64,000 nt of DNA from Alphaproteobacteria bacterium (GTDB lineage Bacteria; Pseudomonadota; Alphaproteobacteria; SP197): assembly GCA_016869675.1 (NCBI GenBank), contig VGDP01000006.1:1-64000 (forward strand). Reading direction: 5' to 3'. The position numbers were made by a program, and so were the translations under genes. Positions 38,623 through 41,479 of the stretch are shown here, one piece after another. The notes beneath the pieces are model-generated. The model made no database searches. It was given only the letters and a program-made list of their open reading frames with translations, and was not told the DNA's origin. Positions within the stretch are counted from its first letter, which is position 1; each line of letters begins with the position of its first letter.

Positions 38623-39224
38623 GGCAGCCCGATCCCGTGGCCGCGCAGGAAACCCAGCAGCGGCAGCAACGGCAGGCCCAGGATGCCGCTGTGGTCGCCC
38701 GCGACGTTCGAGAACAACTGCAGCCCTGGTCCTTCCACCTGGTAGGCGCCGGGCGAGTGCAGCGCCGTCTCGCCCACCTGATCGAGGTAGCGCTCGATGG
38801 TCTCCGGCTCGAGTGGCCGCATGGTCAGGCGGGCCCGCTTCACGTGGTGCCACAGCCGGGCGCCATCGCGCACCACGACGACCGCCGAGACCAGCTCGTG
38901 GGTCGCGCCGGCGAGCACCGCGATCTGCGCATGCGCGTCGGCGCGATCAATCGGCTTGTCGAACCAGCGACGTCCAGCCGCCAGGATCTGGTCGGCGCCG
39001 ACGACCAGCGCGCCCGCGTGGCGCGCGGCGACGCGGCGCGCTTTCAGTTCGGCCAGGGTCTCGGCGGCACGGCCGGCGTCGACCTCTTCGGCGCGCAGGG
39101 CCTGCTTGACCTCGGCTTCGTCGATGGCCGCGACATCGACGCCGAAGACCAGCCCGACCGATCGCAGCAGCGCCGCGCGCGTGGTGCTGGCCGAGGCGAG
39201 AACGAGGGGCGGCGGCACGGTCAT
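38619..39224 (-). CDS. Maf-like nucleotide pyrophosphatase
   Basis: Predicted dTTP/UTP-type house-cleaning nucleotide pyrophosphatase of 201 residues. The ASASTTRAALL start and the VVGADQILA motif are typical of Maf proteins. It is within the maf-aroE-coaE-dnaQ block, and overlaps both the ppsR and aroE reading frames by four bases. Confidence 0.9.
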   Translation of the reverse strand: MTVPPPLVLASASTTRAALLRSVGLVFGVDVAAIDEAEVKQALRAEEVDAGRAAETLAELKARRVAARHAGALVVGADQILAAGRRWFDKPIDRADAHAQIAVLAGATHELVSAVVVVRDGARLWHHVKRARLTMRPLEPETIERYLDQVGETALHSPGAYQVEGPGLQLFSNVAGDHSGILGLPLLPLLGFLRGHGIGLP

Positions 39225-40057
39225 GGTACGGCGTCCAGCCGTTCCTGATGCAGGCGCAGGATCGCGGCGGCGGTTTCCTCGATCGAGCGCCGGGTGACGT
39301 CGATCACCGGCCAGCGCCGTTCGGCGAACAGCCGGCGCGCGTGCGCCACTTCCTCCTTCACCCGGTCGATATCCACATAGTCGGTCTGCTCCGCCTGATT
39401 GAGCATCAGCAGGCGGTTGCGGCGCACCTGGACCAGCCGTTCCGGGTTGTTGGTCAGGCCGACGATCAGGGGCTGCTTGGCACGCGACAACGCCTCAGGC
39501 AGCGGCACGCCCGGAACGATGGGCACGTTGGCCGCCTTGATGCCGCGGTTGGCCAGGTAGAAGCACGTCGGCGTCTTGGATGTGCGCGAGACACCGACCA
39601 GCACTATGTCGGCTTCCTCGATGTCGTGCGGCAACTGGCCGTCGTCGTGGGCCAGCACGAAGTGAATCGCGTCGATGCGTTGGAAATACTCGGCGTCGAG
39701 CGCGTGTTGCCGCCCCGGCTGGTCGCGGCTGACCACGCCGAAGTGGCCGCTGAGCACGCCGATGAGCGGGTCGAGCACCGAGACGGCGGGCACCTGGAGA
39801 CCACGGCAGGCGGCCTGCAGATGCTCGCGCAGCTTCTTGTTGACCAACGTGAACATCACCACGCCCGGGTGGTTCTCGACCGCCTCGAGCACCTTGTCGA
39901 GCTGGCGCTTGCCGCGGATCAGCGGCCACATGTGCTCGACCACGGCGACGCCCTCGAACTGGGAGAGCGCGGCGCGCGCGACGCTGTTGATGGTCTCGCC
40001 GGTCGCGTCCGAGATGAGGTGGAGGTGATAGCGGCGGTCGGCTGGATCGCTGGACAT
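39221..40057 (-). CDS. ppsR: Pyruvate water dikinase regulatory protein (DUF299)
   Basis: Bifunctional kinase/pyrophosphorylase that controls PEP synthase or PPDK by phosphorylation, 278 residues. It has the SDATGETINSVARAALSQF start and the P-loop-like VLVGVSRTSKTPTCFYLANRG. This family (RP001/COG1806 as I know it) flanks the replication origin of many alphaproteobacteria, with hemE on the other side, as seen here. Confidence 0.92.
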   Translation of the reverse strand: MSSDPADRRYHLHLISDATGETINSVARAALSQFEGVAVVEHMWPLIRGKRQLDKVLEAVENHPGVVMFTLVNKKLREHLQAACRGLQVPAVSVLDPLIGVLSGHFGVVSRDQPGRQHALDAEYFQRIDAIHFVLAHDDGQLPHDIEEADIVLVGVSRTSKTPTCFYLANRGIKAANVPIVPGVPLPEALSRAKQPLIVGLTNNPERLVQVRRNRLLMLNQAEQTDYVDIDRVKEEVAHARRLFAERRWPVIDVTRRSIEETAAAILRLHQERLDAVP

Positions 40058-40411
40058 GGGATAACCCTGTGGACAACGGTGGACTTAGCAGATTCACCGC
40101 CGAGATTCGATGGCCGCCCACGCACCCGTCCCCACCGCCACGCCGTCGCCCACAGGCCGAGAATCCTGAGGATTGGTGATGATGGCCGCACGCGACGATC
40201 CCCGTGATTCCCTTCTCGCGCGTCGTGGACGTGGACCGACGAGGTGCGCTTCACGCCATCGATCCACCGATCGGCCCACCATCTTGGGCCATCGACTGTC
40301 GGTTCGTCGCTGTGTGCCGACCGACCTGTGGGCCGTCAGTCAATCCCCAGGAATCGCCGCCTACCACTATCTCTCACTTCCTTTATCCTCTAAGGAAAGA
40401 AGCGAAAAACC
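40058..40411. other. oriC: Predicted chromosomal replication origin (oriC)
   Basis: The 354-base gap between ppsR and hemE occupies the position of the origin in Caulobacter, Rickettsia and relatives. It carries a near-consensus DnaA box TGTGGACAA at 40068-40076, a weaker TTATCCTCT at 40383, a 9-bp inverted pair GCCCACAGG (40148) / CCTGTGGGC (40325), and five GANTC sites at 40091, 40104, 40161, 40206 and 40351. A pyrimidine-rich, AT-richer stretch leads up to hemE. I did not find the TTAA-N7-TTAA CtrA pattern. Confidence 0.7.
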
Positions 40412-41479
40412 ATGACGTCCCCGGTCGGATCCCCTGCCCTAGCACGCACGACGGATCGGCGCCTGTTGCGCGCGATTCGTGGCGAGGCGCGTGTGCCCCC
40501 ACCGATCTGGCTGATGCGGCAGGCCGGACGTTACCTGCCGGAGTACCGCGCGATCCGCGCGGAGGCGAAGGGGTTCCTCTACCTCTGCTATGACCCGGCG
40601 ATGGCGGCTGAGGCGACGTTGCAGCCGGTCCGCCGCTTCGGGCTCGATGCCGCGATCCTGTTCTCGGACATCCTGGTGGTGCCCCACGCCCTGGGGCTCG
40701 CGGTCACGTTCGAGGACGAGCGCGGGCCGGAGGTTGAGCGCGTGGGGTCAGCGCGCGACCTTGACCGGCTCGATCCGACCGCAGCCGTGTCGCGGCTCGC
40801 GCCCGTGTTCGAGACCGTGCGCCGCGTGCGGGCGGCACTCGCATCCGATGCGACCCTGATCGGGTTCGCCGGTGCGCCGTGGACCGTGGCGACCTACATG
40901 GTCGAGGGCGGCACCAGCCGCGACTTTGCGGCGACCAAGCGTTGGGCCTTCAGCGATCCCGAAGGCTTCGGCCGGCTGATCGACACGATCGAGACCGCGA
41001 CGATCGACTATCTGGTCGCCCAGGTCGCGGCCGGCGCCGACGTGGTGCAGCTGTTCGACAGTTGGGCCGGCGTGCTGGCGGATGAGGACTTTGAGCGCTG
41101 GTGCGTAGCGCCGACCGCGCGCATCGTCGCCGCGGTCAAGGTGCGCGCGGACGTGCCGGTGATCGGTTTTCCCCGCGGCGCCGGCGTGCTGATCGATCGC
41201 TACGCGGCGGCGACAGGCGTGGACGCGGTCGGGCTGGACACCACGGTGCCGCTGGCCTGGGCGCGCGACGTGCTGCAACCGAAGGTGACGGTCCAGGGCA
41301 ACCTGGACCCGCTGCTGCTGGTCACGGGCGGTGCCGCGATGGAGCGGCGCGCGCGTGCCATCCTGGAAGCCCTGGGCCGCAGGCCGTTCATCTTCAACCT
41401 GGGTCACGGCGTGGTGCCCGAGACCCCGCCCGATCACGTGGCCGCGCTGGTCGCGTGCGTCCGGGGCTGGCGGCCGTGA
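40412..41479 (+). CDS. hemE: Uroporphyrinogen decarboxylase
   Basis: Decarboxylates uroporphyrinogen III to coproporphyrinogen III. The 355-residue protein has the signature PPIWLMRQAGRYLPEYR near residue 29, GFAGAPWTVATYMVEGG and FNLGHGVVPETPPDHV. Its end overlaps the hemH start by four bases. hemE at the origin border is a known alphaproteobacterial landmark. Confidence 0.95.
   Translation: MTSPVGSPALARTTDRRLLRAIRGEARVPPPIWLMRQAGRYLPEYRAIRAEAKGFLYLCYDPAMAAEATLQPVRRFGLDAAILFSDILVVPHALGLAVTFEDERGPEVERVGSARDLDRLDPTAAVSRLAPVFETVRRVRAALASDATLIGFAGAPWTVATYMVEGGTSRDFAATKRWAFSDPEGFGRLIDTIETATIDYLVAQVAAGADVVQLFDSWAGVLADEDFERWCVAPTARIVAAVKVRADVPVIGFPRGAGVLIDRYAAATGVDAVGLDTTVPLAWARDVLQPKVTVQGNLDPLLLVTGGAAMERRARAILEALGRRPFIFNLGHGVVPETPPDHVAALVACVRGWRP

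Follow-up and report, generated by a model that had tools for sequence, protein, structure and literature searches.

A probable chromosomal replication origin between ppsR and hemE in an alphaproteobacterial lineage in which no CcrM was found

Where does replication of the chromosome begin in this uncharacterised alphaproteobacterial lineage, and does the DNA methylase CcrM take part in it? The 64-kb stretch of DNA analysed here (the window) carries dnaA and, 22.8 kb from it, a 354-base gap between ppsR and hemE, in which a preliminary description had placed the origin, with the suggestion that its firing may be linked to CcrM methylation. We conclude that the gap is very probably oriC, at the usual spot for Alphaproteobacteria, which places an origin for this lineage. 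The proposed link to CcrM is a tempting but wrong one, and it is removed here.

Gene order and chromosome-scale signals

Experiments place the Caulobacter origin Cori between hemE and a DUF299/COG1806 gene (PMC1914354), the same gene that borders the gap as ppsR (Table 1), and hemE and ppsR were thus rightly named as known origin flanks. Beyond ppsR lie maf and aroE and then dnaQ, beyond hemE lie hemH and rho, and dnaN, like dnaA, is about 23 kb away. Of 102 alphaproteobacterial hemE loci, 95 show the divergent arrangement ppsR-gap-hemE, usually with a gap of 260-520 bases; in the other seven, ppsR lies 3.7 kb away (two loci) or was not found (the rest). The GC content, previously put at roughly 65%, is 70.5% for the window and 61.6% for the gap.

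Table 1. Features of the ppsR-hemE gap and of its contig (contig positions; those up to 64,000 lie in the window)
Feature	Position	Strand	Basis or remark
dnaA	15816..17264	-	TIGR00362
ppsR (PEP synthase/PPDK regulator, DUF299)	39221..40057	-	NCBIfam NF003742, 343 bits, above cut-off
Candidate oriC (ppsR-hemE intergenic gap)	40058..40411	.	354 bases; synteny
Half-box GGGATAAC	40058..40065		beside the ppsR-proximal box
ppsR-proximal near-consensus DnaA box TTGTCCACA	40068..40076	-	only exact copy in 64 kb
Five GANTC sites (40091, 40104, 40161, 40206, 40351)	40091..40355	.	sequence
DnaA box of the opening module, CAATCCCCA	40341..40349	+	start of ungapped profile match
11-base spacer with degenerate second box and GANTC 40351	40350..40360	+	sequence
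DnaA-trio-like tract CTA CCA CTA (other strand 3'-GAT GGT GAT-5')	40361..40369	+	covariance-model match; C-N-A consensus
AT-rich stretch reaching the hemE start	40370..40411	+	57-63% AT (30-base windows) vs 30% around
hemE	40412..41479	+	TIGR01464, 422 bits
ParB	98864..99790		
parS TGTTTCACGTGAAACA	101131..101146		perfect palindrome
parS TGTTTCACGTGAAACA	103070..103085		perfect palindrome

The genome itself consists of 97 contigs and is rated 100% complete; on the contig that bears the gap, GC skew is weak (+0.004 left and +0.017 right), and neither it nor the counts of GGGNAGGG give a usable signal. A same-family relative, G006, is near-closed, with two contigs of which the main one measures 3.42 Mb, and its dnaA (2.96 Mb) and ppsR-hemE (0.13 Mb) are about 580 kb apart. 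The two-replichore fit of GC skew in 38 stretches of 20 kb of G006 peaks at 140 kb, with ppsR-hemE at 130 kb, and gives t=3.29 at ppsR-hemE vs 1.43 at dnaA; the skew is weak here too, and when origin and terminus are both left free, the best fit moves to 650 kb, at a slightly higher t (3.98). TA skew, weaker than GC skew, peaks at 320 kb. The GC-skew check that had been proposed for the locus thus favours ppsR-hemE in G006, the contig with the gap being uninformative. ParB, mnmG, mnmE and the two parS sites, which flank mnmG, all lie on the same contig as the gap, 59-64 kb from it and outside the window, within which a parS scan allowing two mismatches returned chance-level matches only.

DnaA boxes and a candidate opening module

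The box inventory of the preliminary description, one near-consensus DnaA box and one 7/9 match, can be confirmed and extended. The ppsR-proximal box is the one site within one mismatch of the consensus, and CCCTGTGG is retained at this box in the nearest relative, G004; the gap also holds the CAATCCCCA box near hemE and weaker sites, including two-mismatch boxes at 40146 and 40383. Neither TTAA nor an IHF consensus occurs in the 354 bases, so that the CtrA-type TTAA-N7-TTAA is absent, as had been noted, and the combination of CtrA and IHF sites found in Caulobacter is lacking; the genome encodes ChpT, a member of the CtrA relay. With few boxes and neither of these consensus sites, the layout does differ from that of Caulobacter, as had been anticipated; the missing sites reduce identity with Cori, not origin function. 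No Rfam family matched the gap region, and an origin ncRNA was rejected on this ground.

Next to hemE, the elements of a candidate opening module follow each other in the order box, spacer, triplet tract and AT-rich stretch, with a degenerate pyrimidine-rich tract directly after CTA CCA CTA. The AATCCCC core of the module's box is almost invariant across 48 relatives, and the AT-rich stretch probably belongs, judging from its composition, to the duplex-unwinding element. With training on 100 relatives, the window sequence excluded, a position-weight matrix scores 40341-40386 (+) at 23.3 bits as its sole match in the window, with no other non-overlapping site above 0 bits on either strand of the 64 kb. 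For a calibrated covariance model built on 48 relatives, the top match in the window is 40342-40387 with 11.6 bits (E=0.026 for 64 kb, or about 1.4e-4 when scaled to the 354-base gap alone); over the genome's 3.5 Mb the gap site fails E<=1. The module is thus a degenerate, weak copy that is not significant genome-wide in its own genome, whereas in 15 of 17 relatives (7 outside the training set) this model finds its top genome-wide match at ppsR-hemE. Position, synteny and module are established by comparing sequences, and from them we infer that DnaA binds at the gap, opens the strands and fires replication there.

The triplet tract repeats C-N-A in the 48 aligned relatives, in which the C of the first three repeats is kept in 41-47 and the A in 36-45, while the middle base varies among T, A and C, G being absent. 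Runs at a spacing of three are far above shuffles for A and C and barely so for T, the base that stands for the published 3'-NAN-5' rule; loci outside the alignment still show the C-N-A periodicity, though less strongly (z 6.1 vs 18), these triplet statistics depending partly on loci chosen for their resemblance to the consensus. The 11-base spacer keeps the tract within 16 bases of the box and falls in the published peak of 10-13 bases for box-to-trio spacers (PMC8287927), but a series of at least three consecutive 3'-NAN-5' trios is interrupted by the middle GGT, which has no A and where relatives also vary. In Bacillus, Asn187 of DnaA reads the middle adenine of the trio (PMC10721633). Alignment to 8btg puts Tyr, Lys and Lys of the window's DnaA at Bacillus Asn187, Asn196 and Arg202, and Tyr occupies the Asn187 position in all 12 DnaAs of the class that were examined, the window's included. 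Given these correlated sequence differences, we hypothesize that the C-N-A triplets and the tyrosine may be linked, a concrete residue-to-base proposal for origin opening by alphaproteobacterial DnaA, whose newness is uncertain.

For the opening of the origin, we propose that DnaA would bind two boxes, the ppsR-proximal one and CAATCCCCA near hemE, be guided over the 11-base spacer onto the triplet tract, which it would read from single-stranded DNA, and open the adjoining AT-rich stretch, where the helicase would be loaded. The distant ppsR-proximal box might act through a loop, as a distant DnaA box can in Bacillus (PMC6669920). Methylation of GANTC by CcrM would have no part in this mechanism in the present genome.

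Two other readings of the locus deserve consideration. Many bacteria have their origin at dnaA, and with dnaA and dnaN just 23 kb away and a contig skew too weak to tell dnaA from the gap, the latter could be an ordinary divergent promoter region; this is very unlikely, since near dnaA there is neither a match to the opening module nor a DnaA box within one mismatch, and since the skew prefers ppsR-hemE in G006, where dnaA is remote. Synteny, a module picked out by a profile built without the window, the skew of G006 and the presence of parS and ParB on the same contig together argue for an origin in the gap and not at dnaA, and it is here, about 23 kb from dnaA, that the preliminary description had put it. 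Alternatively, the conserved block at 40341-40387 could belong to hemE as a leader or promoter element, as it precedes the hemE start by 25-70 bases, a distance that is usually similar in relatives. Yet box, spacer, triplets and AT-rich DNA follow one another in the block as they do in the basal unwinding system defined by experiment, the block is repeatedly the top genome-wide match of its kind and its region belongs to no Rfam family, so that we give very little credence to a role in hemE expression in place of one in the origin.

GANTC sites and the missing methylase

All five GANTC sites described in the gap are real; two of them, 40091 and 40161, have aligned GANTC counterparts in G004, and so, by eye, has the one at 40351 when the opening module is taken as the anchor. 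Whether five exceeds chance, which had been put at about one site, depends on the null: 0.46 are expected from the average rate in the contig (P=1e-4) and 0.75 from that in its other intergenic DNA (P=0.001, uncorrected), but shuffling the dinucleotides of the gap raises the expectation to 2.4 (P=0.08). By heuristic gene calls, the gap has the highest count among 42 intergenic segments of the contig, and the 13 other segments listed as GANTC-richest show no excess (26 observed vs 27.4 expected). Across 15 family origins no other palindromic pentamer is as enriched as GANTC (62 observed vs 26.3 expected, z 7.4), and 84 other alphaproteobacterial origins hold 234 vs 148 expected; because the species are not independent, such z-scores are upper limits. 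The enrichment is 2.4-fold at the origins of the CcrM-less family and 1.6-fold in the other Alphaproteobacteria. Depletion of GANTC elsewhere, which had been suggested as a check, was rejected as a CcrM signature because CANTG and CTNAG are about equally depleted in the contig. The GANTC inside the opening module was likewise judged incidental and not a conserved methylation switch, since relatives show GGGATTC or GGCATCC at its position whether or not they have CcrM.

The gap thus carries the GANTC sites of a CcrM-methylated origin, and its genome encodes no CcrM that could be found. None of the 16 genomes examined in the order, this one included, has the RAMA domain by which CcrM is recognised; 17 of 17 control genomes from other families of the class have it, one with a score under the family cut-off. 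A CcrM query that reaches 60-70% identity in four controls matches nothing in this genome, nor does the Pfam domain N6_N4_Mtase, and motif searches that covered DPPY, NPPY and NPPF yielded only proteins that by their sequences resemble RsmD, PrmC or TrmN6. The check for ccrM that had been called for is therefore negative. G006 has about a dozen N6_N4_Mtase matches, probably acquired restriction-modification genes, with none in the four other family members searched, the present genome included. CcrM has been stated to occur in nearly all Alphaproteobacteria except Rickettsiales and Magnetococcales; because no CcrM was found across the order, which a two-gene tree without support values places near Acetobacteraceae, the order is an apparent exception. 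GcrA is retained (gcrA at contig C28, 17473-17799), which is surprising alongside the GANTC enrichment at these CcrM-less origins.

The origin GANTC sites could still be read by a CcrM-like methylation clock, with its methylase missing from the assemblies or with an unrelated enzyme in its place. The rank of GANTC among pentamers at the family's origins speaks for it, as does the persistence of GcrA, a protein with a preference for methylated GANTC in Caulobacter (PMC3667746); with RAMA missing from all 16 genomes of the order, and CcrM, N6_N4_Mtase and plausible candidates bearing DPPY, NPPY or NPPF missing from this genome, we regard such a clock as improbable. As no CcrM was found, and as CcrM methylation is not required for the control of initiation even in Caulobacter (PMC3973325), a dependence of origin firing on CcrM finds no support. 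We consider it highly probable that the gap is the single chromosomal origin, opened by DnaA through the module and independent of CcrM.

A broader proposal, which we regard as possible but doubtful, joins two ideas: that CcrM was lost while GcrA was kept and selection holds GANTC at the origins, and that DnaA of the class, with Tyr for Asn187, reads 3'-GNT-5'. If true, GANTC would be read unmethylated, for instance by GcrA, and base specificity would have moved from the middle to the outer bases of the triplet. A natural order with GcrA and no CcrM offers a system for asking what GANTC does at origins without methylation.

Comparison with known origins

In its flanking genes, similar gap size, DnaA boxes and AT-rich stretch, the gap resembles Cori of Caulobacter crescentus and the origin of Rickettsia prowazekii, from which it differs in having no TTAA-N7-TTAA, no IHF consensus, no CcrM and fewer recognisable boxes. 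With the basal unwinding system of Bacillus subtilis oriC it shares a DnaA box, a spacer of usual length, a trinucleotide tract and AT-rich DNA. Unlike that system, it has C-N-A triplets on the top strand (3'-GNT-5'), where Bacillus has 3'-GAT-5' with an invariant middle A, a DnaA with Tyr for Asn187 and a position away from dnaA. The gap is an origin of an ordinary class, well placed by the preliminary description, whose regulatory inference was wrong.
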